Source: Bradyrhizobium lablabi
GTDB lineage: Bacteria > Pseudomonadota > Alphaproteobacteria > Rhizobiales > Xanthobacteraceae
Length of the DNA: 64,000 bases
Assembly: GCF_900141755.1 (NCBI RefSeq)
Contig: NZ_LT670844.1
Coordinates: forward strand, 248,001 to 312,000
Reading direction: 5' to 3'
Made by a program: the position numbers and the translations under genes. The notes beneath the pieces were generated by a model. It worked only from the letters and a program-made list of their open reading frames with translations. It was not told where the DNA came from and searched no databases. Shown here piece by piece: positions 2,661-41,280 of the stretch (its first letter is position 1; each line of letters begins with the position of its first letter).

Positions 2661-2939
2661 TCAATTACAAACCGATTGCCATTCGTAGCGTCTGGTCGCG
2701 GGATTCAAGACCTGATGCTGTGAACAGCCGGAGGTCCCGAGCGGAGCGATCACCTGGGGTTGGATCGGCGCGATCGACGGCGGAGCCATGCTGCAGATTG
2801 TCGCCGCGCATATCGGCGGCAGATCGATGGAGCTTGTGCACAGCGGCTGCACCTCGCCGTCAACGCAACGACAGACGCAAGACGCGTCGGCGTGCGTCAC
2901 GAGAAGAGTGAGGAAAACGAGACCGAAGAAAACTCGCAT
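2661..2939 (-). CDS. Small secreted cysteine-containing protein, unknown function
   Basis: A 92-residue protein starts with a clear signal peptide (MRVFFGLVFLTLLVTHADAS). The mature part is about 70 residues with seven cysteines, spaced CVCRCVDG, LCTSS, ICAATICS, SGCSQ and a C-terminal VCN. This suggests a disulfide-bonded periplasmic or secreted protein. I do not recognise a named domain. It is convergent with the carbamoyltransferase, only 10 bp away, and is 36 bp upstream of nothing else on its own strand until the dehydrogenase ends at 2976. It is real by signal peptide and composition; function unknown. Confidence 0.6.
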   Translation of the reverse strand: MRVFFGLVFLTLLVTHADASCVCRCVDGEVQPLCTSSIDLPPICAATICSMAPPSIAPIQPQVIAPLGTSGCSQHQVLNPATRRYEWQSVCN

Positions 2940-2975
2940 ATCGCCGCCCGCCCCGGTCCAACCTTACAAAATATA

Positions 2976-3845: not shown

Positions 3846-3848
3846 CGG

Positions 3849-4980: not shown

Positions 4981-5068
4981 GGCTTCTCTGATCTGCGGCA
5001 CGGGGCCGCTATGATTGGTGCTGCGAGGGGATGTAGCGGCGGGCGCCGCAAAGCGCAATCGGCTCGCG

Positions 5069-23392: not shown

Positions 23393-24742
<1,350 letters not shown>

Positions 24743-26836: not shown

Positions 26837-27921
26837 ACCCCGCAATGCCGACGCTGCTCTTTATCGACGATGATGCGGCGCTGGCCCGCTTGGTCGACCG
26901 CGGCCTGACGCGGCTCGGCTTCAAGGTGATCCACGCCGCCAGCGGCACCGAGGGGCTCGACCGGCTCGCGCAAGGCGGCATCGACGTCATCGCGCTCGAT
27001 CAATACATGCCCGGCCTCGACGGCCTTGAGACGCTGGAGCGGATCTTGGCGATCCCGAAAGCCCCGCCGGTGGTGTTCGTCACCGCGGCGCAGGACTCCA
27101 GCATCGCCGTCACCGCCTTGAAGGCCGGCGCCGCCGACTATCTGGTCAAGGATGTGCACGGCGATTTCATCCCGCTATTGCAGGTCGCGATCGACGGCGC
27201 GTTGCGGCAGGCGGCCATCCAGAAAGCCCGCGACGACGCCGAGGCCGAGGTTCATGCTTCCCGCGACCGCTACGCAGCACTTGCCGCCGAGCGCGAGGTG
27301 CTGTTGCGCGAAGTCAACCACCGCGTCGGCAATTCGCTTCAGATCATCGCCTCGCTGTTGCACCTGCAGGCCAATTCCTCAACCCAGGACGACGTCAAGG
27401 CGGCGCTGACCAATGCGATGGGACGGGTCGCCGCGGTGGCGCAGGTGCACCGCAGGCTTTACACGACGCACGACCTGAAGAGCGTGTCGCTGAGCCAGTA
27501 TCTCGAAGCACTATTGGAAGACCTCCGCAGGTCCGCTGAAGGCAACAAGATGTCGCAACTGACGTTGAAGGCCGAACAGATCGAGATCGACCCCGACCGC
27601 GCGGTTGCGATCGGCATCATCGTCAACGAGCTCGTGATGAATGCGGTGAAATACGCCTACCCCGACGGCGCCGGGCCCATTCACGTCGACCTTCATGCGC
27701 AAGGCGACGATGTCGTGCTGTCGATAGCGGACGAGGGCGTCGGGCTCAACGCCAAGAGCGACCCGCGCTCGACCGGGATGGGACAGCGCATCGTCAGCGC
27801 CATGGCGGCCAAGCTCGAGGCAAATCCCGAACGCGATCCGGCCCATCCCGGAACCCGGATCGTGCTGCGCTTTCTCCGCGTCAAGCCCGTGGCAAACGCC
27901 GGCTGCGCGACGACGAGCTAG
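26833..27921 (+). CDS. Hybrid receiver-histidine kinase, HisKA_2/HWE type
   Basis: The 362-residue soluble protein has an N-terminal receiver (LLFIDDDAALARLV; Asp in VIALDQYMPGLDGLE; VFVTAAQD; Lys in DYLVKDVHGDF). A coiled linker (about 130-165) follows. Then comes a kinase of the HisKA_2 family with phosphoacceptor His in LREVNHRVGNSLQIIASLL near 170, and an ATPase with IIVNELVMNAVKYAYP and IADEGVGLNAK. Such kinases feed general stress or light responses in rhizobia, but the phosphotransfer partner here is unknown. It is translationally coupled to the receiver before it, and likely converts a receiver signal into a new kinase output. Confidence 0.9.
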   Translation: MNPAMPTLLFIDDDAALARLVDRGLTRLGFKVIHAASGTEGLDRLAQGGIDVIALDQYMPGLDGLETLERILAIPKAPPVVFVTAAQDSSIAVTALKAGAADYLVKDVHGDFIPLLQVAIDGALRQAAIQKARDDAEAEVHASRDRYAALAAEREVLLREVNHRVGNSLQIIASLLHLQANSSTQDDVKAALTNAMGRVAAVAQVHRRLYTTHDLKSVSLSQYLEALLEDLRRSAEGNKMSQLTLKAEQIEIDPDRAVAIGIIVNELVMNAVKYAYPDGAGPIHVDLHAQGDDVVLSIADEGVGLNAKSDPRSTGMGQRIVSAMAAKLEANPERDPAHPGTRIVLRFLRVKPVANAGCATTS

Positions 27922-28077
27922 GGTGTGAACCCATCATTCCGAGTGGCCGGCGGACGTCCGCTTTGGTGCGCAGTCCGGACTCAAGTCGGATATCGCGTGC
28001 GGTCCGAAAAGTGCAGCGGAAATCGCGGTCGCGGCCTACTCGATCAAATCGCTGGTGCCGCGAGACGGGACGCCGCG

Positions 28078-29894
28078 TCACTCTGGAAGTCCTGCTTTGC
28101 GGAGACCGTCGATATACAACTGAAGCCCCAATACATCGCCGCGCGCTACCCGTTCAGAAATGCGAAAATCGGGTTCGAGTTCGAGCAGACCGGCCACTGC
28201 CTCCCTTGCCTCTGCTTCGCGTCCTAGATGAGCCAGCGCCGACGCAAGGCAGCGATAAGTGAAAGGAAAAAGCGGGTTCTGGCGGACGGCCTTCTTGGCT
28301 GCCGAGACTGCCTCATCGAAACGACCAAGACCGATGAATGCAACGCTCATTCCTGCAAACGTTGCAAAAAGCAACGGGTCAAATGGGCTTAATCGAATGC
28401 GGCGCTCAAAGCTCCGGATTGCCTCTTCGGGCTGCCCCGCTGTTAGGTAAGCCCAACCTCGCTCTTCCCATGCGCGGAATGAATTAGGGTTCAAGGCGAC
28501 CGCGCGGTCCACCATCTCCTTTGCAGTATCGAAATCGCCAGAAAAGCCAGCGGTTGCGCGGCCAAGCATGCTCAATGCCAAAGTGGCGTTCCCGTCGATA
28601 CTGAGCGCCAACCGGAGAAACCGAAATCCTTCCGCAATTTCTGACTTCGGATCGGCCGCCCATCCGTGACGTGCATTTCGGAGGTGGCATTCCCCTGCGA
28701 GGGTAGCAGCAAAGCCGCACCGAGGGTCAATCTCTGAGGGTCAATCTCTAATGCGCGAGAGGCAAGCCGAAGGCTCTCGGCCGATCCGCCCCGGGTCCAT
28801 GACTGGAGGTGTTGTGCTCGAAGACAAAGGTCGTAGGCGCTGAGGTTGTTCGGCCGACGCGCCGCCAAATCCATTTCTGTTTGAAGCAATTTTGGCTGAA
28901 TGGCAGAAACAACATTCACCGTCACCTCGTCCTGCACCGCAAAAACATCGCTTAGATCACCTTCAAATCGATCAGCCCAAAGGTGCGCGCCGGTCATGGC
29001 ATCAATCAATTGGCCGGTAATGCGGACTTTTCCGGCTGCCTTGCGCACACTTCCTTCCAGGACGTAGCGAACACCGAGCTCGCGCCCGACCTGTTTGATA
29101 TCGACGGCCCTCCCCTTGTAAGTAAAGCTCGAATTGCGCGCGATCACGAATAGAGATTTGAACCGCGACAAGGCGGTGGTGATTTCGTCCACCATGCCAT
29201 CCGCGAAATAGTCCTGCTCCGGATCGCCGCTCATGTTCTCAAACGGCAGCACGGCGATGGAGGGTTTGTCGGGGAGCGCGAGGGGCTGCGCAGTCTCGGT
29301 CTTCGGTTTTGTTGTCGGCGAAGAGCTTGGGCCGATGCGCACGCGCCAGGTCCGCATCGGTTCGGCGATATTCTTCAAAGATTGCGAACCCATATCCTCT
29401 AAGGTGCTCTCAACCTTGCCCCGAACCTGCCGGTGAGCATCGTCGGAAATGCAAATCCCACCCGGCTCTGCGATCCCTTCGAGACGCACTGCAATATTGA
29501 CCCCATCACCAAAGATATCATCGTCTGCGATGATAATATCACCGACGTGAATGCCGATGCGGAGCTCGATCCGCTTGTCCTGCGGCACATCGGTATTTTG
29601 TTCTGCCATGCCGCGTTGGATTTCGTCGGCACATCGCACGGCGTCGACCACGCTGGCGAACTCAACGAGCGCGCCGTCCCCGGTATTCTTGACGATGCGT
29701 CCGCGATGATCAGCGATCTTGGGATCGAAAAGCGTCTTTCTGAGAGCTTTCAGTTGCTCCAGCGTGCCTTCTTCGTCCATCCCTATCAAGCGGCAAGAGC
29801 CCGCGACATCCGCCGCCAGAATAGCCGCCAGTCGCCGCTCTACGTGCTCGCTGCTCAAGATGCACCCCCGGGCTCGGGGAAATTGAATGTTCAT
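28078..29894 (-). pseudogene. Class III adenylate/guanylate cyclase with TolB-like and TPR domains, frameshifted
   Basis: Two frames together encode one protein of about 600 residues. The N-terminal CHD cyclase domain has AAILAADVAGSCRLIGMDE, VKNTGDGALVEFASVVDAV and LRIGIHVGDIIIADDDIFGD. A TolB-like segment follows (KPSIAVLPFENMSGDPEQDY, FADGMVDEITTALS). Then come TPRs, which continue in the second frame (28078-28611) as ALNPNSFRAWEERGWAYLTA and following. The break is a 14-nt tandem duplication at 28722-28749; removing one copy restores the frame exactly. The N-terminal 400 residues could still make an active cyclase with a truncated TPR part. Start taken at ATG 29894 (TTG at 29903 possible). 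Confidence 0.88.
28722..28749. repeat. Exact 14-nt tandem duplication that breaks the cyclase gene
   Basis: GAGGGTCAATCTCT occurs twice in direct succession (28722-28735 and 28736-28749). With one copy the minus-strand frame reads on as ...EIDPRCGFAATLAGECHL... into the TPR frame; with two copies it shifts and stops after 59 foreign codons. Confidence 0.93.
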
Positions 29895-30709
29895 ATAGCA
29901 CAATTGTGGGCCGACGTCCGGCTATGCCCCACGTCCGAAATGGGTCAAAAACAGTCCTGACGCCATTGAAATGGGATGTACGTATTACCCCCGACAGCAG
30001 ACATCGTCAGCGCCGCCGCGATGCAAGGTCCCGATCCTGACCCGTTCGACGATTGCGATGTCATCGTCTGCTACGGCGGCGCGAAGGCCACCGACAAGCA
30101 CCTTGCCTCCGCTGTTCATTGCGTTGACGACGAGATTTATCGAATGGCTGAAGCGCCCTGAGCAACGCAGGCGCGACCGCCACGCCACGAAGCAACTAGC
30201 CTGTAGTCGGCAACCGGCGTAATCGGTCATCGGGATTGCGGCCAGCTCGCTGCGACATTCAATGCGCACCGAGCAAATGCAGCCATTGCTACGCGAGATC
30301 GGCCAACTTCGGCAGCTCATATATGATCCCAATTGTGAAATGGCACACAGACAGGAGCCGTTCAGTCTGGTTGTGTTAAGTGGATGGCCGCCCGTCGGTG
30401 GGGAGCGCGCCACACGGTCTCGAAATCGGTTGCGCCATGAAATTGAATTGACGAAAGCACGCAACTCTGCTATCGGCCGTTTTCATCAAAAGCATGCGGC
30501 ATTTTAGGAGTATCGTCATGCGCGGTTTCAATTGCACGGCTACTACTATGGTGTGCACCTCTCTCATTTTTGAGTCCACCTTGAGCGGGTGAACCAAAGA
30601 GGTTTCGCGTGCGCTGAATACTGCGTACAGGGATTTTCTGGGCCCCGCCGGCGACGGACGGGGCTTTTCTATTTCTTTTTTCTGCCCACTGCTGCCTGGC
30701 GGTGCCCCT
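29895..30709. other. Gene-poor stretch with degenerate repeat remnants
   Basis: No convincing gene is seen in these 815 bases. The first part (about 29909-30060) holds a diverged copy of the dispersed hairpin repeat found downstream (GGGTCAAAAACAGTCCTGACG, then CCCCCGACAGCAGACATCGTC). A 24-codon open frame with a good AGGAG site (30518-30592, MRGFNCTATTMV...) lies before a terminator-like hairpin, but is too short to judge. Other open frames here have no domain features. Confidence 0.4.
30642..30668 (+). terminator. Terminator-like hairpin in the accessory region
   Basis: The stem GCCCCG/CGGGGC with an 11-nt loop is followed by TTTTCT. It would end transcripts coming from 30.5 kb just before the next small gene. 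Confidence 0.55.
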
Positions 30710-30730
30710 GTGAAGAAGGACGCAGGGGTC

Positions 30731-30919
30731 ATGTGGTACTTTTGGCCCGATTTAGCATTTGATCTTGTCAAGGGGCTGGTAGCCGGAGGTGCTTCTCTAG
30801 CGCTTCAAGCGGTCGCCCCCATGACGCTTCGCGCCTTGAAGCGGTTTCGAGCGCGTTGGTCTGCTCGGAAAGCCGCAAGAAAAGCAGGCCGCAACGCGTC
30901 CGTGAATGATGGCGGTTAG
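30731..30919 (+). CDS. Small basic protein with one hydrophobic helix, unknown function
   Basis: A 62-residue protein (69 if the GTG at 30710 is used) begins MWYFWPDLAFDLVKGLVAGG. A hydrophobic helix spans about residues 8-28, followed by a strongly basic Arg/Lys/Ala tail (KRFRARWSARKAARKAGR). This looks like a small inner-membrane protein with a cytoplasmic nucleic-acid- or lipid-contacting tail, but that is inference. A Rho-independent terminator 20 bp downstream supports it being a real transcript. No homologue is recognised. Confidence 0.45.
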   Translation: MWYFWPDLAFDLVKGLVAGGASLALQAVAPMTLRALKRFRARWSARKAARKAGRNASVNDGG

Positions 30920-30939
30920 GAGGACAGTCGCATTAAACT

Positions 30940-30973
30940 AGCCCGCCGGGCGCGCTGGTCGGCGGGCTTTCTT
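30940..30973 (+). terminator. Rho-independent terminator after the small basic protein gene
   Basis: A perfect 8-bp stem AGCCCGCC/GGCGGGCT with a 13-nt loop is followed by TTCTT. Confidence 0.8.
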
Positions 30974-31064
30974 ATCAAGATTAACCATGATGCGCGTTGT
31001 GGCTGACAATGCGTCTAGGACGCGCATAGCAATGCCAAGTCGGCTGAATAATCCACCGGATTAT

Positions 31065-31460
31065 TTAGAATGACGTGATTTCGCCCACTCGCTCAACAAG
31101 ATGCGCACGCGAGGGTGCAGGGTCAAACCGATCGGCGAAATATTGCGTTTCATTGGCCACCAGTCCTTCGCGGAATTCCATGATGCTCACCGCGTAAGAT
31201 GGTATGCCGTCATAGGTAAGTACGAATTCAGTGACCCAGAGATCGCCGCTGCCGATAATTCGCCGGACCGTAAAACGCTTCTTGTTTGGCTGGACGAATC
31301 GGCTCTCTTGAATGTTGTGCCGGCCGCGGATCCGCTCGCCCGATTGCGGATAATCAAGCACAGCATCCTCGCGGTAGATTTCATGTTCGACCTTGAAATC
31401 GCTCGCGTCCGAAGCATCCCAATGGCGCTCCAGCGCCGCCCGCACGGTTCGATCATCCAT
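31065..31460 (-). CDS. SnoaL-like / NTF2-fold protein
   Basis: The 131-residue cytoplasmic protein has the SnoaL_2 pattern: VRAALERHWDASDASDFKVE, EIYREDAVLDYPQSGERIRG (the acidic residues that line the pocket), RRIIGSGDLWVTEFVLTYDG and SIMEFREGLVANETQYFAD near the end. The NTF2 fold serves as a small ligand-binding or isomerase/dehydratase scaffold; members with this layout are usually of unknown substrate. It is a single gene on the minus strand within the accessory stretch. No neighbour suggests a pathway. Confidence 0.8.
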   Translation of the reverse strand: MDDRTVRAALERHWDASDASDFKVEHEIYREDAVLDYPQSGERIRGRHNIQESRFVQPNKKRFTVRRIIGSGDLWVTEFVLTYDGIPSYAVSIMEFREGLVANETQYFADRFDPAPSRAHLVERVGEITSF

Positions 31461-31952
31461 CTCAATCTCCCACCTGCGCTTCCGACTATCATTTCGGGAC
31501 CACTGAATTCATTGTGCTGTACGCTATTCTGAAACGTGGGGCTATGCCGGTCGCGCCAGTCGTGCGTCGCCTCGCGATACCTTCGATTGCGGTTTGGTTT
31601 AAGGATACGCCTGTGGGAAGCCCCCGACAATGTGCGGATTTCGTCGGCCAATGGCGCGAAGAACTTCTCGCCTCGATTTGGACAAGTGGCCTAACCGAGT
31701 GTCACCTTCGGGTCAAAAACGGTCCTGACGGCCCCGAAACACCACTTTCGGTCTACCCCCGTCAACGGACATCGTCAGACCGCCCCGGCATGTCTCAAAG
31801 GTGCCAAAACCCGAAATCGTAAACCTAAGTATCATCGTCTCAAACAAATGTAAGGCACTGATGAACGTCTGTGCAATGGTCCGATCCGTCTCTCTGTGAT
31901 TGGTTGTAGTTCGACGGCGTTATGCCGTTCGAACTGGGATTGTGGAGGCGAA
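31461..31952. other. Intergenic stretch holding a dispersed repeat copy
   Basis: Nothing with gene-like features was found here. The second half contains the best-preserved copy of the dispersed hairpin repeat (31709-31813). The only open frame, 31514-31822, translates across the repeat and is regarded as non-coding. Confidence 0.5.
31709..31813. repeat. Dispersed hairpin repeat, copy 1
   Basis: About 105 bp: CGGGTCAAAAACGGTCCTGA, then TTTCGGTCTACCCCCGTCAA, CGGACATCGTCAGACCGCC, and the core GGCATGTCTCAAAGGTGCC at 31787-31805. Cores of the same form occur at 33278, 34962 and 36495. Confidence 0.75.
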
Positions 31953-32150
31953 ATGCTGAGCAAAGAATATTTGGACACGGCACGGACCATACTCCGGGCG
32001 GCCCAAACAATGACCGACCAACACGTTGCGGGTCAGCTTAAGGCGCTTGCTGAGGACTATGAGCGGCGAGCTGAGAAAGCCGCACACGCTGATGCGGCTA
32101 AGGCATTGGCTCGGTCAGCTGCTCGCGAATGTGAGCGTAGGGTGGAGTAA
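31953..32150 (+). CDS. Small helical protein, unknown function
   Basis: A 65-residue protein begins MLSKEYLDTARTILRAAQTM and continues as an amphipathic, Ala/Glu/Arg-rich helix pair. It resembles in layout the many 60-75-residue bradyrhizobial proteins that start ML(S/T)xEYYxxA and are annotated only as hypothetical. The start was chosen at ATG 31953 because of GGAGG nine bases upstream; the longer frame to 31896 has no ribosome site. Probably cytoplasmic and helical. Function unknown. Confidence 0.65.
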   Translation: MLSKEYLDTARTILRAAQTMTDQHVAGQLKALAEDYERRAEKAAHADAAKALARSAARECERRVE

Positions 32151-32398
32151 CGGATCGCGAAACTTGCCTGGAGGTGTAGCATGAGGCGGCGTTGGTTTGC
32201 GCTGATCGGCTTTACCGCCTTGCTTTTCCCCTCCTATCCTTACCGGCGACCATAGCACTAGCCTCTGCGTTCGTGCTCCAGTCCGTTCGCGTTTGCCCGC
32301 ACGGTTGTGTCAGGACATGTAACGGTCGCTTTATGTGCACACTTAACCGGCGGGTTAATTCGTCCACAACACCTCTCAAGCAGGAAGGAAGCACTATC

Positions 32399-32554
32399 AT
32401 GAACGTCATCATCCAGAAGCTTAACGGCTTGTGGCACCTCATCGTCGGGTCGTGTCAGATCCGGACTCCGTTCTTGGAGACACAGGACCGCGCGCTGGTC
32501 GTTGCGTACGCCCGCCGGGTCTACCCGGGCGCCAAGATCCTCGAACGCGACTGA
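32399..32554 (+). CDS. Small protein of 51 residues, unknown function
   Basis: An ATG at 32399, preceded by CAGGAAGGAAG, opens a 51-residue frame: MNVIIQKLNGLWHLIVGSCQ, then a helical ETQDRALVVAYARRVYPGAK segment. The pattern of two strands followed by a helix recalls small DUF2188-like folds, but the match is weak and I do not assign it. It lies 248 bp after the previous small gene. An apparent longer frame back to 32192 lacks a ribosome site. Confidence 0.5.
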   Translation: MNVIIQKLNGLWHLIVGSCQIRTPFLETQDRALVVAYARRVYPGAKILERD

Positions 32555-32770
32555 CGGTCAAGAAGGGGATGGGGCAGCACTCACGCAGGTCAAGTGTGCT
32601 GCGCCGCGAGTTCGGCGCTCGGACCCATGAGGCGCTCTGGGATCAATGAATCTAGTCATTGGCGGCGCCAATCCTAGTGGCGTTGCACGGCGCCACAAAG
32701 CCCGCTGTAATCGGCGCCATGAACGCTACCAAGTCTCGCGAGCGCATTTGGGTGGCCGAGTCCGCCGCTC

Positions 32771-33022
32771 CTATGTCTGGTTCTCGATAGGTAAGGCCGT
32801 TGAGCCGCCAAACTTGGACGGATCGTTGTAGCTAGGTGTGTCGTCGTAGTGAACGGTAGGCGGAGGCGCTGCGTAGGCCCAGCCCGGAACGGCGTAGCCC
32901 GAGAACCCTTGGCTAGGAAGAACGATGACATGATGTCGCGGGATAGTGTGATGCACAGTCGCGGCGCTTGCAGAAGCACACAAGATCATCAACAGGCTTA
33001 AGGCCAAAAGAACGCATCGCAT
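32771..33022 (-). CDS. Small secreted protein with Pro/His/Tyr-rich mature part
   Basis: An 83-residue protein opens MRCVLLALSLLMILCASASA, a clear signal peptide with Ala-x-Ala cleavage. The mature part reads VHHTIPRHHVIVLPSQGFSG, then YAVPGWAYAAPPP, and ends with a conserved-looking DDTPSYNDPSKFGGSTALP. I recall many bradyrhizobial short secreted proteins sharing the PSYNDPSKFGG ending; none has a known function. The start was taken at the ATG (33022), three codons inside a TTG-opened frame, because the GGAG site precedes it. Confidence 0.65.
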   Translation of the reverse strand: MRCVLLALSLLMILCASASAATVHHTIPRHHVIVLPSQGFSGYAVPGWAYAAPPPTVHYDDTPSYNDPSKFGGSTALPIENQT

Positions 33023-33462
33023 TTGCTCCAATCAACTTGTCGGGTGGCGAACGGTCCCGACCTGCACGCGGCGGGCTGGGACGCTGCCGATCAAATGCGT
33101 TCGGGCGGTCGTCTCCCCAAGGGGCACCGGCCTCACGTTCGTTCAAAACAGCAAGATCATGCGCGCATGTCCAAGGGGCCGCGCCTCCGATATCCGCTAA
33201 TGGTCAATCACGTCGGTTTGGCCAGGTGCCGGCCACTTCCGGTCTTCCCCGAACTACGGACATCGTCAGGCCGGCCTGGCATGTCTCAAACGTGCCAAAA
33301 ACCGACGTGAGCCAGGACTTCGTCAGATGCAGTGAACGTTCGCGAGAGCGGGAATTGGAAAATCCGGATGCTGCCGGCTTCCCCCGTCGGCAAAGATCGT
33401 CTCCGTCCCGGTGCGGATCAGCGCGCCGGGGCTGTCCGTTGCTATGAATCGAATAGAACGCT
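33023..33462. other. Intergenic stretch holding a dispersed repeat copy
   Basis: Short overlapping frames on both strands have no domain features. The stretch contains repeat copy 2 and otherwise nothing recognisable. It separates the small secreted protein's promoter side from the 3' end of the solute-binding protein gene. Confidence 0.45.
33175..33308. repeat. Dispersed hairpin repeat, copy 2
   Basis: It contains CACTTCCGGTCTTCCCCGAA, ACGGACATCGTCAGGCCGGCC and the core GGCATGTCTCAAACGTGCC at 33278-33296, ending CCAAAAACCGACGT. The order of blocks is the same as in copy 1. Confidence 0.72.
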
Positions 33463-34692
33463 CTAGCCCCCGATTTCGCTGCTTAGTGTGGGCCCGAACA
33501 ACTCCCATCTGTCGCCCTTGAACCTCCTGAGCTGCACCTGTTTGATCGGCGCGAAATCGATCGGGCTGGTATTGATCTTGATGCCGGGCAGCAGGTTCGT
33601 GGTCTTGAAGTTCTTGAGGTTTGCGGCCTGCTTCATCACACTCTCGCGCGAGAGATTGTCGCCGCACTGCTTCAGCACCTGAACGAGCGTCTGGGCCATA
33701 TTGTAGCCTGCCATCACCAGACTATCGGCCCGATTGCCTTCGGGGAAATCCTTGGCGAGAAATTCGTCGAACGCCTTCATGCCCGGATCATCCTTCCACT
33801 GCGGATCGAGTGCGTCCATCAGATAGGCCACTGAAATGATGTCCTGCGCTTTCTCCACGCCGGCCGGCCTAATCACGGCACCAATGGAGGTGCTGACGTT
33901 GTTGAGGAAGTGTAGTGGCTTCCAACCGATCTCGGCCGCTTTTCTGATCGCCTGCGCCGCGAACTTCGCCGTGGTGATGTCGACGAATACATCGGCATTT
34001 AGCGATTTCATTTTGACGATGTGCGAGTCGATGGTCGGGTCGGACACCTCATAGGCCTCCTCTGCGATGATCATCAACGCGGCCCTGTCGCCGAGGCCGT
34101 CCTTCAGGCCTTTGACATAATCCTTCCCGTAGTCGTCGTTCTGGTAGAGGACGCCGATCCTGGCGTTTGGCTTTTCCATCAGAATGTACTTTGCGTAGAT
34201 CCGTGCCTCGTTCTGGTAGTTGGGGCTCCAGCCAATGGTCCACGGGAAGTTCTGCGGATCATTCCATTTGGTTGCCCCAGTCTGCACGAACAGCTGCGGC
34301 ACTCTCTTCACGTTCATATATTTCTGAATGGCCGTGTTGGACGGCGTGCCAACCGAGCCGAAGATCAGAAAAACCTCGTTGCCCTCGACCAGCCTGCGCG
34401 CCTGCTCGACTGCTTTTGGTGGACTGTAAGCGTCGTCGTAGGAAATGAAGTTGATCTTGCGGCCGTTGATACCGCCTTCGGCGTTTATCTTGCGAAAATA
34501 CGCCGCCTCGGTCCGACCGGTGACGCTGTAGGCCGATGCTGGGCCGCTGTACGGCATGATGTTGCCGATCTTGATTTCCGTGTCGGTAACACCCGGATCG
34601 TATTTCTTCTGGGCAAGTGCGCTGCTTCCGCTGGCAGCTAGCAAAATGATGGCGGTCGAAAACGCCGCCAATCGTCGCGCGACGAAAGACAT
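33463..34692 (-). CDS. ABC transporter substrate-binding protein, branched-chain amino acid type
   Basis: The 409-residue periplasmic receptor has a signal peptide (cleavage near SALAQ, residue 27) and then a Peripla_BP_6 fold: KKYDPGVTDTEIKIGN, IMPYSGPASAYSVTG, NGRKINFISYDDAYSPPKA, SVGTPSNTAIQKYMN, RIGVLYQNDDYGKDYVKGL, and VMAGYNMAQTLVQVLKQCGD. It should bind an amino acid, amide or aromatic acid for import by a Liv-type ABC complex. No permease or ATPase genes lie beside it, so it is an orphan receptor. It is a paralogue of the partial gene at the left window edge. Codon use is close to core genes. Confidence 0.9.
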   Translation of the reverse strand: MSFVARRLAAFSTAIILLAASGSSALAQKKYDPGVTDTEIKIGNIMPYSGPASAYSVTGRTEAAYFRKINAEGGINGRKINFISYDDAYSPPKAVEQARRLVEGNEVFLIFGSVGTPSNTAIQKYMNVKRVPQLFVQTGATKWNDPQNFPWTIGWSPNYQNEARIYAKYILMEKPNARIGVLYQNDDYGKDYVKGLKDGLGDRAALMIIAEEAYEVSDPTIDSHIVKMKSLNADVFVDITTAKFAAQAIRKAAEIGWKPLHFLNNVSTSIGAVIRPAGVEKAQDIISVAYLMDALDPQWKDDPGMKAFDEFLAKDFPEGNRADSLVMAGYNMAQTLVQVLKQCGDNLSRESVMKQAANLKNFKTTNLLPGIKINTSPIDFAPIKQVQLRRFKGDRWELFGPTLSSEIGG

Positions 34693-35168
34693 TTCGTTTC
34701 TCCCTATGAATCAATGAATGTGTCTATTGTTGTTGGAGACCTCTCTCGGATCCCCTCTGCGGTAGTGAACACCCTTCGTCAACAGTTGTCGATCTCCACG
34801 AACGCCACCTCGCGTGCGCTTTCGGCGTCAGTTCGTGCGATTCGTCAATGTAGCTGACCCTAATGGTCAGGAGCCGCGTTACTCCTCTCCGTCGGTTTGA
34901 GGGAAGGTGCACTTGCTCAGCCGCCGGTTAGCCCTGAAAGCGGACATTGCGCGATACAGTCGGCATGTCTCAAAGGTGCCAGTACCGGAAATGGCGCACC
35001 ATTGGTTGCCCAAGGACCTCTCTCAGAGCGATCAGCCGGATTCTCGGAGTTGGGCTTTGGACAGCCGTCACCGAACCGTCTTCGCCGTCGATGACGGAGG
35101 CGGCTTGCACCACATCGCACTAGGAAATCCTACCAAGGGTGTCTGTCCTCGCACTGAGAACAAATGCT
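34693..35168. other. Intergenic stretch with a repeat remnant
   Basis: It probably holds the promoter of the solute-binding protein gene, but I could not fix -35/-10 boxes. A shortened repeat copy lies at 34935-34992. The open frame at 34907-35350 translates across this repeat and overlaps the better-supported minus-strand genes. Confidence 0.4.
34935..34992. repeat. Dispersed hairpin repeat, copy 3 (short)
   Basis: It retains AAAGCGGACATTGCGCGATA and the core GGCATGTCTCAAAGGTGCC (34962-34980), identical to copy 1 over 19 bases. The left block is missing. Confidence 0.7.
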
Positions 35169-35387
35169 CTACCAGTAGATCAAACCCTTTTGAGCCCTTG
35201 CCGCCACGCTGTTTGCAAATGCTGCTGCTGCGAGCCTTTGCTTTTCGGCGCAATGTATCGCCAGAATTTCGTAGAACTGCGCCTCCATGGACGGAACATT
35301 TTCCCCCTTGGTGCACACTGCATCAGCAGTGGTACTCACTAGGGCACTAACCTGACGCACAAGTAAATCATCCATTGATGGTTCCAT
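35169..35387 (-). CDS. Small protein of 72 residues, unknown function
   Basis: The frame begins MEPSMDDLLVRQVSALVSTT after a strong AAGGAGAAGG ribosome site. It is predicted to be largely helical with a central cysteine pair (AVCTKGE, IHCAEK) and an Ala-rich C-terminal helix. It lies 30 bp after another minus-strand small gene and probably shares its transcript. No family is recognised. The strong ribosome site and coherent composition argue that it is real. Confidence 0.5.
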   Translation of the reverse strand: MEPSMDDLLVRQVSALVSTTADAVCTKGENVPSMEAQFYEILAIHCAEKQRLAAAAFANSVAARAQKGLIYW

Positions 35388-35417
35388 AACCTTCTCCTTG
35401 TGCCACGCGAAACCGGA

Positions 35418-35699
35418 TCAACGCCGCTTCGGCCTCAACGCTAGTTCATGTTTCCTATAAAGTTCGAGCCAACGTTTTTCACGGGGAGTTGTCGGTTCGC
35501 CCTCGAATGTCCAGCCAACATTTCCGTTGTCGTCCAGAGGGGGCAGTGCTTCGAGAGCTTCAAACTCGATTGTTTCTTCAAATGAAAGTCCGGCTAAGCA
35601 CCGCCTATTCTCCTGCGGGCAAAAGTGGCGGCCAAAATCCTCTCGCGAAGAAAGCGGCGCAACTTTGTAAAAAGTGTTGCTACGGAACGAACGCGACAT
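35418..35699 (-). CDS. Small protein of 93 residues, unknown function
   Basis: The frame begins MSRSFRSNTFYKVAPLSSRE and has a polar, acidic middle (FEETIEFEALEALPPLDDNG) and a charged helical end (RWLELYRKHELALRPKRR). It looks like a soluble cytoplasmic protein. The gene precedes the 72-residue gene on the same strand by 30 bp. The 5' end overlaps by 20 bp the 3' end of a further possible frame (35680-35916). No family is recognised. Confidence 0.5.
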   Translation of the reverse strand: MSRSFRSNTFYKVAPLSSREDFGRHFCPQENRRCLAGLSFEETIEFEALEALPPLDDNGNVGWTFEGEPTTPREKRWLELYRKHELALRPKRR

Positions 35700-35916
35700 C
35701 GAAGAACCTCCGCGATAAGCCAGTTCCTAAAGGCAGGCTAACCGAAACACCGGTTAGACCTTGTGAACTAGTACACACATCACGAAAACACTCGAACGAC
35801 CTCGTATAGCCGCGCAGAGTATCCACCGACTTGTGCCTCAGTTTCGCGCGGCCCTTGCGCTCCTCTGCATAGCCGCGAAGGAATCGAAGCGCATCCGTAG
35901 CGATATTCATCCGCAA
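35680..35916 (-). CDS. Possible small protein of 78 residues, weakly supported
   Basis: The frame opens MRMNIATDALRFLRGYAEER and is basic overall. Its 3' end overlaps the start of the next minus-strand gene by 20 bp, which could mean coupling or chance. No ribosome site of quality, domain or signal was seen. It is listed because it would complete a three-gene minus-strand unit, but it may well be a random open frame. Confidence 0.25.
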   Translation of the reverse strand: MRMNIATDALRFLRGYAEERKGRAKLRHKSVDTLRGYTRSFECFRDVCTSSQGLTGVSVSLPLGTGLSRRFFDVAFVP

Positions 35917-36056
35917 GTTACGATCGTGACTGCACGGCAGGATACGTCATATCCGCTGACCGATCGAGCCTGTGGCCGTGCCGGGACTGTTGTGGCAAGC
36001 TCAGGCAGGCTTCCTCATGCAAAGTTGCACAGGGTCCTAAACCTAGGAGGACGACC

Positions 36057-36350
36057 ATGGTAACTTATGTCGTGCTGGCGAAGTTCACTGAGCAGGGAAT
36101 CCGCAATGCCAAGGATTCTCCAAAGCGGGCAGATGCCTTCAAGGAAATGGCGAAGACATTCGGCGTGACTGTGAAGGACATCGTCTGGACGCAGGGGCGA
36201 TACGACATTGTGACGATCGTCGAGGCACCGGATGAGTCATCCGCCATGTCGCTGAACTTGAGTCTCGGCGCGCTCGGCAACGTCCGCACCGAAACGCTGC
36301 GAGCCTTTTCAGCGGCTGAGATGACGAATATTGTCGGTAAGATGCTCTGA
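36057..36350 (+). CDS. GYD-domain protein
   Basis: The 97-residue protein matches the GYD family (named for its Gly-Tyr/Arg-Asp motif, here TQGRYDIVTIVEAPDE). It opens VTYVVLAKFTEQGIRNAKDS and has FKEMAKTFGVTVKDIVW before the motif. The fold is a ferredoxin-like dimeric alpha/beta barrel; the function is unknown. A perfect AGGAGG lies seven bases before the ATG. A stand-alone gene in the accessory stretch. Confidence 0.85.
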   Translation: MVTYVVLAKFTEQGIRNAKDSPKRADAFKEMAKTFGVTVKDIVWTQGRYDIVTIVEAPDESSAMSLNLSLGALGNVRTETLRAFSAAEMTNIVGKML

Positions 36351-36447
36351 CACGCGTCCGCGTCTGCCCTTCTGCACGGCCGCCAAGAGGCGCGTTCCGT
36401 GGAGCAACGCGCATTCGCTGTTATGGGCCCCCAATTCAGAACGAGTA

Positions 36448-36530
36448 AATGTCTTCCGCTTTGCTCCCGGACTCGGACATGGTCCGATGCCGCCGGCACG
36501 TCTCAAACGTGCCAATTTCGGAAGTCACGA
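36448..36530. repeat. Dispersed hairpin repeat, copy 4
   Basis: It contains TTCCGCTTTGCTCCCGGACT, CGGACATGGTCCGATGCCGCC and the core GGCACGTCTCAAACGTGCC (36495-36513). In this copy the core arms GGCACGT/ACGTGCC pair perfectly, indicating that the hairpin is the conserved part. Confidence 0.72.
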
Positions 36531-36610
36531 GCGTTGCCTTATTCGAGCATGTTGGCGGGCTCGCTTGAGGCATATTTTTTATTTCCTGTTTTTGATGGAT
36601 ACTAAGCAGC

Positions 36611-37141
36611 ATGTCGCCGAGCGAATCCGCATTGGTGGTCTTGGTGCCGGAAGCAGAGGCCGTCGCGAAGCCATTCCGTGATCGTTACGATCCCTCAGCT
36701 GCTGCCGGTATGCCTGCGCACATCACATTGCTATATCCATTCAAAGCACCTTGCGAGGTCGACAACATAACGCTCGGCAAATTACGCGATTGCTTTGCGC
36801 GCTTCGAACCGATCCGGTTCTCACTTAGCGCGATCCGGCGATTCCCAATCGAGGTATTGTATTTGGCTCCGGAGCCCGATGAGCCGTTCCGCCAACTCAC
36901 TTTGTCGATTTGGAATCTGTTCCCGGAAACGCCTCCGTATCGCGGAAAGTGGTCCGACATTGTTCCTCACCTATCCGTGGCGCAGCTCGTGAACGAACAG
37001 CAGATCGCCGCTGTCGCCGAAGACCTTGCGAAGGCATCTCAAGGAAAATTGCCGATCCGCGCGTTCGCGTCCAAGATAGCTCTGATGGACAACCGGTCTG
37101 GTCGTTGGGGGATTAGGGATTTGTTCAGCTTGGGCGCGTGA
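36611..37141 (+). CDS. 2'-5' RNA ligase / 2H phosphoesterase family protein
   Basis: The 176-residue protein carries the two His-x-Thr/Ser motifs that define the 2H superfamily: H37-I-T39 in AHITLLYPF and H120-L-S122 in VPHLSVAQ, at the expected spacing. Members cleave or form 2'-5' or cyclic phosphodiester bonds in RNA or nucleotides. It is a single cytoplasmic enzyme with no RNA-repair neighbours. The natural substrate cannot be stated. Confidence 0.85.
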   Translation: MSPSESALVVLVPEAEAVAKPFRDRYDPSAAAGMPAHITLLYPFKAPCEVDNITLGKLRDCFARFEPIRFSLSAIRRFPIEVLYLAPEPDEPFRQLTLSIWNLFPETPPYRGKWSDIVPHLSVAQLVNEQQIAAVAEDLAKASQGKLPIRAFASKIALMDNRSGRWGIRDLFSLGA

Positions 37142-37283
37142 CGCTATGACCAACCACGGCGCTATCGCGCGGCTGTGATGACAGCGACCGTCTGTCAAAA
37201 GGGCGACTTCCGGTATGGGTCAAACTGAGAAGAACTCAGTGCGAAGCGCGGTAGGGACGGTCATTGCTGACCGCCCCCCGCCC

Positions 37284-37317
37284 AAATCCGTGCAGGCGGA
37301 ATTCCCGCACACGGCTC
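37284..37317 (-). ncRNA. Group II intron domain V
   Basis: The 34-nt segment reads GAGCCGTGTGCGGG, AATT, CCGC, CT, GCACGGATTT. It has the AGC catalytic triad at positions 2-4, a distal GCGG/CCGC stem and a two-base bulge before the returning strand. It directly follows the RT stop codon. Confidence 0.75.
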
Positions 37318-38796
37318 CTACCTTGGGTGCATGACGGCGAAACGCTTGTCAGGATACGGGTGAAGGATACGCGGTTGAGGGAGCCAGTTGGCGGCGAGCC
37401 CGTGCATTCGTTGCCACGAGAAGCGGTCCTTCTGGCTACGCCGCCGCAGCGTGCGCAACCAGATGCGCTTCACATAATGGTAGAATGCTCTCAGTGCAGG
37501 GCCATTGGTCGGCACGGCATGATAGGCGAAGAAGCCTCTGACCACCTGCTTGAGCCAGGCCCCTTGCTCGGGGATAGGCTCGTGCATGCGCCGTCGCAGT
37601 TCCTCCTTGATCCTCCTGAGCGTTGCCCGCATGCGATCGCGCCGTGTTGTTCTTTTGACAAGGAACTGCCCACGGCTGTTGCGTTCACAGATGAAGGTAA
37701 AGCCAAGAAAGTTGAAGGTCTCCGGTTTTCCGAGCCCGCGACGAGCGCGTCGTTCCGCCGCAAAGCGGCCGAACTCGATCAGGCGGGTCTTTTCCGGATT
37801 GAGCGACAGCGAGAACTCCTCGAACCGCTTGCGCATATCGTCCCAGAAGCGCCGGGCGTCCGCCTCGTGCTCGAAGCCGACGACAATGTCATCAGCATAA
37901 CGCACGAGGATCATATCGCCCGTGGCCTCGTGCCGTCGCCAGCGCTCGGCCCAGAGGTCGAACACGTAATGCAGGTAGACGTTGGCAAGCAGCGGTGAGA
38001 TTACCGATCCCTGCCCCGTCCCCTTTTCACTGACCGTGACAACCCCGTTCTCTAGGACACCCGCCTTCAACCACTTCTGGATCAGGCGGATAATGCGCAG
38101 ATCGCCGATGCGGTGCTCCACGAATCGCACCAGCCAGTCTTTGCTGACTGAGTCGAAAAAGGAGGCCACATCTGCGTCAAAAATGAAGTTCACTCGCCTG
38201 CTCGTGATCCCGACGACCAGCGCATCCAGCGCATTGTGCTGACCTCGCTTGGGTCGGAACCCGTAGCTGAACCCGAGGAAGTCTTCCTCGTAGATGGCGT
38301 TCAGCACGGCCGCGGTCGCTCTCTGGACGATCTTGTCCTCGAGTGCCGCAACCGCCAGCGGACGCTGTTTCCCACCCGCCTTGGGTATGTACGTCCGGCG
38401 TGATGGCAGTGCCCGGTATGCTCCCCGATGAACCCGCTCGTGCAGATCAGTGAGGTTTCGGTCAAGGTCTGCTTCGTAGGTCGGCCACGTCAGTCCATCC
38501 ACCCCGGAGGCGGCATCGCGTTTGAGCGCGAAGAACGCCATCCGCAGGCAGTCGATGCTGATGTGGTGGAGGAGTGCAGTGAACCTCTCCTTCTTCCGTT
38601 GCCTTGCGGCTTGCCGTACGCGCTCCAGCGCCTGTGCCACGCGCTCCCGTCCCTGTGTCCGGTGCGTGCTTTGCTGGCGCGCGTTCCCCTTGGCCCCCGC
38701 CCTTGGCTCCACCGGCTCCGCTGCGGTCGGGACCGCTTTGTTCGTCGGCTTCACAGCTACTATGGCAGAGTCTGACTTCTCGCGACCGTGCATCAT
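37318..38796 (-). CDS. ltrA: Group II intron reverse transcriptase/maturase
   Basis: The 492-residue intron-encoded protein reverse-transcribes the intron RNA and helps its splicing and mobility. Reverse transcriptase blocks are visible: GVDGLTWPTYEADLDRNL, RRTYIPKAGGKQRPLAVAAL, GFSYGFRPKRGQHNALDAL, FIFDADVASFFDSV, GTGQGSVISPLLANVYLHYV, and the catalytic LVRYADDIVVGF near 300. A maturase X-like region follows (WLKQVVRGFFAYHAVPTNGP). It ends in YPDKRFAVMHPR; an HNH endonuclease domain is absent, as in class C. The frame is full length and probably functional. Confidence 0.93.
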   Translation of the reverse strand: MMHGREKSDSAIVAVKPTNKAVPTAAEPVEPRAGAKGNARQQSTHRTQGRERVAQALERVRQAARQRKKERFTALLHHISIDCLRMAFFALKRDAASGVDGLTWPTYEADLDRNLTDLHERVHRGAYRALPSRRTYIPKAGGKQRPLAVAALEDKIVQRATAAVLNAIYEEDFLGFSYGFRPKRGQHNALDALVVGITSRRVNFIFDADVASFFDSVSKDWLVRFVEHRIGDLRIIRLIQKWLKAGVLENGVVTVSEKGTGQGSVISPLLANVYLHYVFDLWAERWRRHEATGDMILVRYADDIVVGFEHEADARRFWDDMRKRFEEFSLSLNPEKTRLIEFGRFAAERRARRGLGKPETFNFLGFTFICERNSRGQFLVKRTTRRDRMRATLRRIKEELRRRMHEPIPEQGAWLKQVVRGFFAYHAVPTNGPALRAFYHYVKRIWLRTLRRRSQKDRFSWQRMHGLAANWLPQPRILHPYPDKRFAVMHPR

Positions 38797-39122
38797 CGGC
38801 TACGGCTCCTCGCCTTCCCGATGCGGACCGACGGCTGTTGCCGAGCGGTCGATCGCGAGATCTCCCGGTTCCCGTGCAAGGAGCGTCTGCACATGCCAGG
38901 GTCTCTGACCACGCCGGGTCGTCCTGGCGCTCGCGATGACGCGCCCGGATGTGTTGCCTTCCGCCAAATGCACGGCGTCGGCACCCAGAATAGGAATCTT
39001 TCGCGGCTCAATGGCTGGCCTATGCGCGCCCCTGTCAACGCTTCGCCGAAACCCTCGCGGGCAACTGCGCATGACTCGGGGCCGATGTGGATCGCTACTC
39101 CTTCATCGTAAGAGACTCGCAC

Positions 39123-39433
39123 TCTCTACTCCTTGCCGGTCTCCCGGCGCTTCGCATATGTTTTCCGCTTCGCCCTCGAACTCGGACATTGCCCGATGAC
39201 GTCGGCACTTCGCATTTGCGGCAATACCGGACATACAGGTCCATGCTGCTGTATGTACGCAGATGGCGGGATTCTGCTCAACCAAAAGCGGTTATGTGTC
39301 GATCTCATTCATGAAGATGAATGGAACTCTATGAGATGTTTCGCATTTTATGGCACAGGTAACCCTTGCGCGCCGGTTTCGCCGAGCGCACGCTTGCCAA
39401 GCGTTTTCACAAGAACTTACGGAGGATGCGACC
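39123..39433. other. Interval between the intron and the Gly/Cys-rich gene
   Basis: It contains a degenerate repeat copy (about 39160-39235: TTCCGCTTCGCCCTCGAACT, then CGGACATTGCCCGATGACG, GGCACTTCGCATTTGCGGC) that is the left part of what the intron interrupted or abuts. It is followed by an AT-richer stretch that must carry the promoter of the next gene. I could not assign the promoter boxes. Confidence 0.4.
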
Positions 39434-39940
39434 ATGCCACGGGTCAAGCAAGCTTCGAAGCAGAAACGCACAACCAAAGCCGCCGCCGTGAAGGTGCTGG
39501 GTGCCGCCGGACTGGGTCTTTCGCTGGTGGGTAGTGCATCCGCATCCACGATGCCCACTGCCGGTATCCCGCAATCTGACAATACCTCGCCCAATCAGCG
39601 CTTCGTTCTTGGCGAAGAGGAAATGGCCGACGTCAGTCTCGCTACGTTCCATCTCTTCGATAGGGAAAACGTTGGCAGCGGCGTGCAGCTAGCCCGCGGA
39701 TGCGGTGGTTGCGGCTGCCGAGGTGGCGGCGGGTGCGGCGGGTGCCGAGGTTGCGGCGGTGGCGGCGGCTGCCGAGGTTGCGGCGGGGGCGGGTTCGGTG
39801 GCTGCCGAGGTTGCGGCGGCGGCGGCGGCTGCGGGTTCGGTGGCTTCTGGTTCGGTGGCTGCGCGGGCTGCGTGGGTTGCGCGGGCTGCGCGGGTTGCGC
39901 GGGCTGCTGCCTATCCTGGGGAGCGTGCCGCTTGTGCTAA
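39434..39940 (+). CDS. Glycine/cysteine-rich exported protein, possible RiPP precursor or metal/redox protein
   Basis: A 168-residue protein in three parts. Residues 1-40 are basic then hydrophobic (MPRVKQASKQKRTTK, VLGAAGLGLSLVGSASAST), like a signal peptide with Ala-x-Ala cleavage. Residues 41-88 are an ordinary leader-like segment with an acidic, hydrophobic block LGEEEMADVSLATFHLFDRE. Residues 89-168 are almost only Gly and Cys with a few Arg, Ala, Phe and Trp, and contain 20 Cys in GGC, RGC and AGC triplets, ending CCLSWGACRLC. The start was set at ATG 39434, after GGAGG. I recall similar bradyrhizobial proteins with a conserved VSLATF block but no known function. Expected to be exported or post-translationally modified. 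Confidence 0.75.
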   Translation: MPRVKQASKQKRTTKAAAVKVLGAAGLGLSLVGSASASTMPTAGIPQSDNTSPNQRFVLGEEEMADVSLATFHLFDRENVGSGVQLARGCGGCGCRGGGGCGGCRGCGGGGGCRGCGGGGFGGCRGCGGGGGCGFGGFWFGGCAGCVGCAGCAGCAGCCLSWGACRLC

Positions 39941-40470
39941 GTCCCACGACCTAACGGCCGGCATCACCAAGGACTCTGCTAAGCTGGGTCTCTAATCGAT
40001 CAGCCTCTCGCTGGTTGCGAGACAGGGCCGTTGATGCGTAGTCGAGTACGCGCTTGGCCGAGCTTTCGGCCGGCGCCACCACTCCATGCTTTTGTGCCGG
40101 GCCTTAAGCCTGAACCCTTACTAACATAAACCCGCTAACATAAACCCGACGCTGAGAAAATTGCGTCCAACGAGTTCAATAGCCGATTTTCCCAAGGTCG
40201 CCTTCGGGTCAATCGCGTCGTCCTGCCTGTCCGCCGGTCACTTCCGGCACCCGATGAACGGACAATTGATGCCAGCTTCGCAGACTATGGCCAATTTGGG
40301 CTGCAATTGTGCGACGCCTTCGGTGCGTGTGAAAACTTGCACGCTCCCGTCGCTCCGTGGCAGATATGGGCGAGTGCTCGGCCTCTTTTGGACCAGAATC
40401 TTTGATCCGGGCGATGACCCAACAGACTTGACGCGGGCATCGGCCGGCTCACAGACATGGGAGCGTTCTT
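39941..40470. other. Intergenic stretch downstream of the Gly/Cys-rich gene
   Basis: It holds a perfect hairpin GGCCGA-GCTT-TCGGCC (40056-40071) without a T-run, a 14-nt tandem duplication (40121-40148), and another diverged repeat remnant (about 40190-40265, GGTCGCCTTCGGGTCAATCG, then CACTTCCGGCACCC). No gene is recognised. Confidence 0.4.
40121..40148. repeat. Exact 14-nt tandem duplication, intergenic
   Basis: CTAACATAAACCCG is present twice in direct succession (40121-40134 and 40135-40148). Unit length equals that of the duplication in the cyclase pseudogene, although the sequences are unrelated. Confidence 0.85.
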
Positions 40471-41094
40471 ATGATTGGCCTGTTCTTCGAGGTCATGCCG
40501 CGCCTTGGTCACGAGCAAGCCTACTTTGATACAGCTGCGGGCTTGCGACCGGAGTTGGACAAGAATCCTGGCCTCTTGTTCATCGATCGCTTCAAGAGTC
40601 TGGTCCGACAACGCATTGTGCTGTCGCACTCTCATTGGCGCGACGAAGCAAGTCTTGCCAGCTGGCGCACCCACGCAAAACATCATGTCGCACAGATTGC
40701 GGGGCGTCAGCAGCACTTCGAGGACTATCGTCTGCGAATCGGCCAGCTCGTTTGCGAGTGGCTTCCTCAGCCCAGCGGTCTCCGCCGGCTGGAAATCAGC
40801 AACAGCTACAACGACCCGCTGCTGCGCCAGGAACGGTACATGATTGCGTCCACCGCCAGGAGACCGCCCGAAGCAGGAGCCGAAAGCGATGTTCTGGCGA
40901 GTGTCTATCGTGACACCGAATACCTCGTCTTGACACCGACCCCATCACTTTCAGACGGCCTTGAGGCGGTCAAGCAGCTCTCGCTGACTGGCGCCATGAC
41001 TTCGGTCCGCATGTATCTCGTTTCGCGCGACTACGGCATGTACGACCGGAAGGAGGCACCGCAATACTATCCGCCAGTGAACGGTGATCAATGA
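40471..41094 (+). CDS. Antibiotic biosynthesis monooxygenase (ABM)-fold protein
   Basis: The 207-residue protein has an N-terminal ABM-like half (residues about 1-95): IGLFFEVMPRLGHEQAYFDT, NPGLLFIDRFKSL, then LSHSHWRDEASLASWRTHAK, and RQQHFEDYRLRIGQ. These are the usual strand-helix marks of dimeric alpha/beta-barrel monooxygenases and HmoA-like haem-binding proteins. The second half (100-207) may repeat the fold in weaker form (TEYLVLTPTPSLSDGLEAVK). It is a soluble single gene. It lies 530 bp after the Gly/Cys-rich gene on the same strand; a functional link is possible but unproven. Confidence 0.72.
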   Translation: MIGLFFEVMPRLGHEQAYFDTAAGLRPELDKNPGLLFIDRFKSLVRQRIVLSHSHWRDEASLASWRTHAKHHVAQIAGRQQHFEDYRLRIGQLVCEWLPQPSGLRRLEISNSYNDPLLRQERYMIASTARRPPEAGAESDVLASVYRDTEYLVLTPTPSLSDGLEAVKQLSLTGAMTSVRMYLVSRDYGMYDRKEAPQYYPPVNGDQ

Positions 41095-41280
41095 GATACA
41101 CATCTGAGCCGCACGGATGTATTGCTCATGGCCCCGATGTCCGGTTCGGGTCGATGGCGTCGATTTTAGCGTGTCCGCGGTATGTCCGGATGGTGAGGAG
41201 CGCGGCAGCGCCGCGCGTCTCGAACCACGAGGCCATGCTACCCGTCGCGAAGTCCTCTTCGCCCTGCTAACCTGCCGCCC

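Follow-up and report, generated by a model that had tools for sequence, protein, structure and literature searches.

The window, a stretch of 64,000 nucleotides from Bradyrhizobium lablabi (G000:C1:248001-312000 of a 7.9 Mb genome assembled as a single contig), contains a gene for a Gly/Cys-rich protein whose parts are collected in Table 1, together with the control region in front of it and a related operon elsewhere in the chromosome. An earlier note, made from the letters of the DNA, had described a protein of 168 residues with 20 Cys, and translation of the open reading frame (168 amino acids followed by a stop) confirms this description: all 20 Cys fall inside residues 88-168, a stretch of 81 residues of which 40 are Gly. 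The leader block that the note placed at residues 60-78 is also present, although the letters quoted for it correspond to residues 61-78; its two L(X)4[hydrophobic] elements are L59-M64 and L69-L74. An alternative upstream ATG at 39350 would extend the protein to 196 amino acids. The 168-residue start is favoured because a GGAGG-like sequence precedes the matching ATG in most relatives among 24 aligned upstream regions, with differing sequences in L046, L053, L054 and L059. Neither Pfam nor NCBIfam contains a family that matches the protein at E ≤ 10, which agrees with the note's view that it belongs to an uncharacterised family.

Table 1. Features of the window gene, its surroundings and the related operon. 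Window features are numbered from the first letter of the window, operon features along the contig.
Feature	Position	Strand	Remarks
Strain-variable segment of about 13.4 kb holding the precursor gene	27885..41258	.	Mostly GC-poorer; seven relatives compared
Palindrome TTCATGAAGATGAA, candidate operator common to the operon-linked paralogue	39308..39321	+	126 nt before the ATG
Shine-Dalgarno-like GGAGG	39421..39425	+	8 nt 5' of the ATG at 39434
Putative orphan LAP/TOMM-type precursor gene, 168 aa	39434..39940	+	Translation, homologues, paralogue comparison
Leader, N-terminal part, residues 1-39	39434..39550	+	Basic, then weakly hydrophobic; like a signal peptide by eye; conserved across 74 aligned sequences
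Conserved leader block LGEEEMADVSLATFHLFDRE, residues 59-78	39608..39667	+	Two L(X)4[hydrophobic] elements
Core, residues 88-168	39695..39937	+	20 Cys in GGC/RGC/AGC repeats; end CCLSWGACRLC
VOC (glyoxalase-fold) gene, own-genome operon	164220-165101	-	
Operon precursor (paralogue)	165369-165767		Enzymes downstream on the same strand
Cyclodehydratase (YcaO), own-genome operon	G000:C1:166076-168331		Same strand as the paralogue
SagB-type dehydrogenase, own-genome operon	end near 169815		Same strand as the paralogue

The precursor family: leader, cores and distribution

By sequence, the window protein is a member of a large, Bradyrhizobium-centred family. Homologues at E ≤ 1e-3 number 4344 among 7993 scored candidates, and among the 120 listed, one of which is the window's own record, the leader motif occurs in all 119 others and a CCxSW[GR]xCRxC tail in 111. 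Thousands of homologues, with the leader motif in every one of those listed, argue that the open reading frame is not a chance one, and the doubt raised in the earlier note, that no homologues might share the leader block, is removed. Family members combine a conserved leader (EEExxDV[S/N]LATF), a variable GGC/RGC core and an end that is usually CCxSWGxCRxC. A leader query of 146 genomes of the genus gave 102 matches in 61 genomes, with 1-7 in each and more than one in 19; in G025 a single broken copy contributes two of the matches, and in G015 a short remnant is counted.

The window and 80 fetched regions make up a set of 81 loci. The gene finder applied to them required D[VIL][ST]L[AS]TF and returned 75 genes, missing six of the loci, and the invariance of DVSLATF in the 74-sequence alignment is therefore partly built in by the finder motif. 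Five of the six genes outside the motif search read DVNLATF, while the other, L101, reads DVSLATF and has few Cys; in all, 76 of the 81 loci have DVSLATF and 5 have DVNLATF. An L(X)4[LIM] element is found in 71, and an L(X)4[LIVM] element in 73, of the 74 aligned members. LSEEEL and LSEEEM of the window leader presumably resemble the cyanobactin element LSEEAL; a text search of the literature found no mention of LSEEAL as a leader peptide element, and comparison of the leader with the PDB gave no relevant match.

The cores of the 75 genes are 49-157 residues long and contain 4-21 Cys. Their C-terminal motif, CCx[SR]WGxC[RA]xC, is present in 40 of 41 genes linked to the operon described below and in 24 of 34 orphan genes, which stand apart from it. 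Seven of the 34 orphans have another core, poor in Cys, whose basic, Pro-rich tail ends in HRTN (L101, outside the 75-gene set, is an eighth such basic-tail orphan), and three have a tail ending GGQPQ. One leader with interchangeable cores is typical of RiPP precursors. L094-L101, three of which lie in G053, are near-alike orphans in which the family leader is followed by a brief Cys stretch and by a Pro-rich, basic end in HRTN or HRTS; a basic tail is also seen in L125, which comes from another genus.

Most named loci kept from a leader-profile scan (80 of 110 relatives) are labelled Bradyrhizobium (73), the other seven being MAGs with other or broader labels. Matches to the leader profile were found in 19 of 198 genomes at family level (three Bradyrhizobium; two of the matches at E near 1e-3 to 1e-4), in 5 of 297 at order level at E ≤ 1e-3 (three Bradyrhizobium) and in 4 of 299 at phylum level at E ≤ 1e-6 (again three Bradyrhizobium). 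L174, where a contig of 3.7 kb assigned to an Opitutaceae MAG carries a family gene, probably reflects a binning error. Orphan copies do decay, as seen in L113 (G025:C1:3349619-3349847), a broken copy whose leader is split over two reading frames, and in a short precursor-gene remnant at G015:C1:3208677-3208751, upstream of which the palindrome is still exact.

The maturation operon and its linkage to the precursor

The chromosome contains one clear paralogue of the window gene, 122 kb away, and it is with this paralogue that the maturation enzymes are associated. The operon cyclodehydratase matches the NCBIfam models TIGR03604 (223 bits, cutoff 219.25) and TIGR03882, the leader-binding domain (150.5 bits, cutoff 36.9), with a YcaO match of 1.6e-90. 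Its matches to LynD (9.1e-148) and TruD (2e-147) cover nearly the full length and are accompanied by likeness of fold; MusD (1.4e-136) is a further relative. Judged from these matches and a predicted model, it is a LynD/TruD-type fused enzyme. The AlphaFold model (mean pLDDT 72.4, pTM 0.71) has a strand-helix N-terminal domain, the putative recognition domain, which on its own gives a weak match to LynD (E 0.0072). The SagB-type dehydrogenase matches TIGR03605 (176.2 bits, cutoff 78.4), and the SagB protein of L061 matches CyaGox (3.6e-52) and contains a ThcOx domain. The VOC protein matches Rv0577 (3.9e-29).

By tblastn, 46 of the 81 loci carry all four genes: a divergent VOC gene is followed by the precursor, by a cyclodehydratase no more than 4 kb away and by a SagB-type dehydrogenase (the last in 46 of 46). 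The remaining 35, including the window, are orphans without cyclodehydratase and SagB beside the precursor. Among these orphans, L055 has a VOC-like gene only and L051 lies about 20 kb from the operon of its genome. The named set, which overlaps the first, has enough flank at 66 of 80 loci, comprising 51 full sets, 14 loci without any of the genes and L203, where the enzymes are present and the VOC gene is not. At the 14 loci outside the genus (L120 and L122-L134) the cyclodehydratase lies 3' of the precursor in all except L125. A VOC gene was detected in only four of them (L120, L122, L124 and L132; several flanks are short), so that the VOC link appears to be mainly a Bradyrhizobium trait.

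Precursor and enzyme also occur together across genomes. Among the 146 genomes of the genus, each of the 61 precursor-positive ones contains one close cyclodehydratase gene, defined by 70% identity or more and lying on two contig pieces in G091; one enzyme set thus faces one to several precursor genes. No close cyclodehydratase was found at E ≤ 1e-60 in the 85 precursor-negative genomes, two of which (G062 and G095) hold a relative of 38-41% identity.

Some of the more distant enzymes lie in settings of their own. The relatives in G095 (L115) and G062 (L116) are divergent TOMM cyclodehydratases in genomes without the precursor family, and a simple composition filter found no Cys-rich precursor in either stretch. 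G083 holds an additional cyclodehydratase relative of 35% identity: on its contig C3 (L227) a 352-residue Ser/Thr-rich repeat protein (1643-2701) is followed by this divergent YcaO enzyme (2884-5130) and, downstream, by a SagB-like frame recognised by eye. This genome may hold a second LAP system, of the oxazole type. At L226 (5565-7695, G542) a cyclodehydratase adjoins a distant precursor relative and is split over two overlapping frames, from either a broken gene or a sequencing error.

Apart from the cyclodehydratase, SagB and VOC families, every family recurs within about 10 kb of at most 14 of the 41 operon loci. The earlier note had proposed a RiPP-precursor layout with radical SAM, YcaO or ABC exporter genes as neighbours. 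The layout of leader and Cys core is borne out, whereas the maturation enzymes do not lie beside the window gene: a YcaO partner exists but adjoins the distant paralogue. Radical SAM is absent from the families that recur in most operon loci, and a radical SAM, lanthipeptide or thioamide route was rejected, none being recognised among the recurrent neighbours of these loci. Of the suggested exporter there is no clear sign: an oligopeptide-type ABC ATPase (assigned by eye) lies 6-7 kb off, on either strand, at 15 of 75 loci, and recurs on either side at 7 of 41 operon loci. Among the recurrent neighbours of precursor loci, no protease or macrocyclase and no immunity or exporter gene was recognised.

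Genomic site and shared control region

Comparison with seven relatives places the window gene at a variable site. Conserved DNA stops at about 27.9 kb and resumes at 41.26 kb of the window, and none of the stretches fetched from the seven relatives matches the intervening DNA over more than 120 bases. The segment ends are about 12 (G025), 120 (G053) and 165 (G015) bases apart in three relatives, about 0.5 kb (G006) and 1.2 kb (G012) apart in two more, and 8-9.7 kb apart with other DNA in between in G052 and G054; it is these differing distances and contents that mark the site as variable. GC content per kilobase is 0.54-0.63 in the segment against 0.61-0.68 in its flanks. Among its genes are one for an RVT_1 reverse transcriptase (37318-38796, minus strand), which we take to be of the group II intron type, and others for a GYD protein and for a protein resembling 2'-5' RNA ligases. 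All 60 genomes compared have the downstream aat gene, and inspection by eye, in a collection where many assemblies are split, found a family gene within 100 kb of aat on the same contig in the window's genome only. In 537 of 561 orphan pairs the two loci have no neighbour family in common within 6 kb, and orthologous sites were therefore rejected. A mobile element as their carrier was rejected as well, a search of the flanks of 34 orphan loci having found no common repeat.

A palindrome of the form TTCAT-N4-ATGAA lies upstream of family genes. An exact copy stands at 37 of the 46 operon loci and at 11 of the 35 orphans; allowing one mismatch raises these numbers to 45 and 17, which leaves 18 orphans without it. 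In L059 and L066, two of the 17, it stands at another distance. The flanks contain 2 exact sites in 722 kb, and the window itself 2 against 0.04 expected by shuffling; the window site at 24245 falls inside a long unrelated ORF and was taken as chance. A stricter form, TTCATSAASATGAA, was chosen once these sites had been seen. The own genome, 7.9 Mb in size, has exactly two copies of it, one preceding the operon precursor and the other the window gene, against none of the control pattern. A scan of 12 more genomes with the family gave 15 sites: 13 precede family genes, one adjoins the remnant (G015:C1:3208861) and one lies in an unrelated place in G002; three of these genomes have none. Twelve genomes without the family contain 5 sites, and the control pattern gives one site in each group of 12. 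The palindrome is therefore enriched at the family and not exclusive to it. Sites of the form TTCATGAACATGAA unlinked to the family (G002:C1:4698704, G021:C1:4800389 and G056:C1:4655984) might belong to another gene under the same regulator, or be due to chance. Likeness between orphan copies extends into the control region: when the window copy is aligned with other orphan loci, the five longest matches, at 82-89% identity, start 151-232 bases upstream of the gene and end between 1 base before and 81 bases after the gene end.

Interpretation and relation to known systems

The match of its leader to that of the operon-linked paralogue, the presence of one maturation operon in the genome and the palindrome common to both genes make it highly probable that the window gene encodes a trans-modified precursor of a linear azole-containing peptide (LAP/TOMM). 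The product would be a small modified peptide of Bradyrhizobium, perhaps an antibiotic. In the mechanism we propose, a single regulator, acting through the upstream palindrome, would induce the orphan and the operon jointly. The conserved leader block would then dock on the LynD-like cyclodehydratase at its N-terminal recognition domain, as suggested by the retained L(X)4L elements and by the precedent of the LynD leader. The enzyme would turn the Cys of the GGC/RGC core into thiazolines, which the SagB-type dehydrogenase would oxidise to thiazoles, after which removal of the leader would release a polythiazole-type peptide. A bacteriocin role is the commonest for the LAP class, and we assume that the product most likely acts on related soil bacteria as a bacteriocin of narrow spectrum. 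The VOC gene adjoining the operon may encode a self-protection or tailoring protein. The signal-like N-terminus, a likeness judged by eye and to our knowledge unusual for a LAP, could stand in for an exporter.

Residues 1-40, with their likeness to a signal peptide, the 20 Cys and the want of an enzyme gene adjoining the window gene would all suit an unmodified Gly/Cys protein secreted through a Sec signal, its Cys binding metal or forming disulfides. Such a protein is nevertheless very improbable. The complete co-occurrence of the precursor with a close cyclodehydratase in the 146 genomes and the physical linkage to cyclodehydratase and SagB at 46 of 81 loci led us to reject an unmodified metal-binding or structural protein as the main reading, and the leader block stays constant while the core varies, to the point that eight orphans carry a different core behind it. 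A further alternative, which we regard as unlikely, is that the window gene is a silent or decaying duplicate, a copy scattered by a mobile process that is not, or is no longer, a working precursor. The strain-variable segment holds a reverse transcriptase gene as well, broken family copies exist elsewhere, and the leader dN/dS of the window gene against 13 orphan copies, with a median of 0.47, is at least 1 in five comparisons, so that a recent relaxation of the window leader is possible. Against decay, the frame, ribosome-binding site, palindrome, leader block and CCxSWGxCRxC end of the window gene are all intact, and the tail is kept in 24 of 34 orphan genes.

The chemistry of the trans-modified precursor would be the same if its product served as a metal chelator or a signal and not as a bacteriocin, the poly-thiazole route being compatible with both. 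The extreme Cys/Gly content and the recurrent neighbours devoid of a recognised immunity or exporter gene point in this direction. Against it, most characterised LAPs are antibacterial. Klebsazolicin and phazolicin inhibit the ribosome (PMC6783444). Both are precedents of the class and not of this product, and on balance we hold a chelator or signal to be rather doubtful.

Modification in trans may be part of a wider arrangement, which we put forward tentatively and as a whole, in which one chromosomal azole-forming enzyme pair is the hub of a dispersed precursor regulon. The precursors would be scattered, each with its own control region of about 200 bp and palindromic operator, and their cores (Gly/Cys repeats, a basic Pro-rich tail or a GGQPQ tail) would be swapped behind a fixed leader. 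Precursors with a Sec-type signal of their own may need no dedicated exporter, and immunity may come from binding of the thiazole peptide by the VOC protein. Searches of genomes for azole peptides look for precursors near enzymes, and since the enzymes here adjoin a sister gene about 120 kb away, a search among enzyme neighbours would miss the window gene. Should the orphans be modified in trans, Bradyrhizobium, whose members live in soil and nodules, would have a larger and more strain-variable set of peptides than cluster counts suggest. The family would also provide a natural system for how one azole-forming enzyme handles many cores, and a thiazole peptide predicted for B. japonicum would become directly testable.

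The B. japonicum prediction concerns a Cys-Arg-Gly repeat precursor proposed as the precursor of a thiazole bacteriocin (Lee et al. 2008, mentioned in PMC2674419). It comes from the same genus, has repeats like those of the window family and is most likely the operon-linked form of that family; the mention covers the precursor alone, whereas unlinked copies, the palindrome, the VOC gene and swapped cores are found in the window family. Heterocycloanthracin (HCA) of the Bacillus cereus group, as described in PMC2674419, resembles the window gene in its Cys-Xaa-Xaa repeats and Gly/Cys core, and its precursor is likewise encoded far from the maturation operon. Unlike HCA, the window family has a single-chain LynD-like enzyme, a long signal-like leader and 1-7 matches per genome, one of them still in the operon. 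The HCA model TIGR03601 may be missing from the NCBIfam release in which the window protein had no match.

Cyanobactin systems, with LynD or TruD and the oxidases CyaGox or ThcOx, are close in the near-full-length homology of the cyclodehydratase, the ThcOx-domain SagB and the L(X)4L-type leader element, which in the LynD complex extends a sheet of the recognition domain (PMC12455567). Unlike them, the window system is alphaproteobacterial and has a long Gly/Cys-repeat core, and no PatA/PatG-type proteases were recognised among the recurrent neighbours of precursor loci. The use of one maturation enzyme for several precursors is shared with MprE1-MprE10/MprC, as outlined in PMC12455567, and with the prochlorosins, described as many precursors served by one promiscuous enzyme. 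The leaders of both belong to the Nif11 and NHLP families, unlike the window leader, and the prochlorosins have lanthipeptide chemistry. Phazolicin from Rhizobium sp. Pop5 is a rhizobial LAP, as proposed here, but its account in PMC6783444 gives separate B, C and D proteins and an exporter in one cluster and azoles from Ser and Cys.

The survey of Cox 2015 names HCA and the prochlorosins as cases of precursors encoded elsewhere and states that precursors more than 10 kb away escape detection by its method (PMC4603692); the string 'rhizobi' is absent from its main text. LAP-type clusters are reported in some genomes of the related genus Afipia (2025 paper, PMC12282010). Among the matches listed in our literature search, which covered titles and the starts of abstracts and few subscription journals, none described dispersed precursors of this family. 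The kind of system and the hint of a B. japonicum precursor were thus known already, while the dispersed multi-copy layout, the palindrome and the swapped cores appear to be new.
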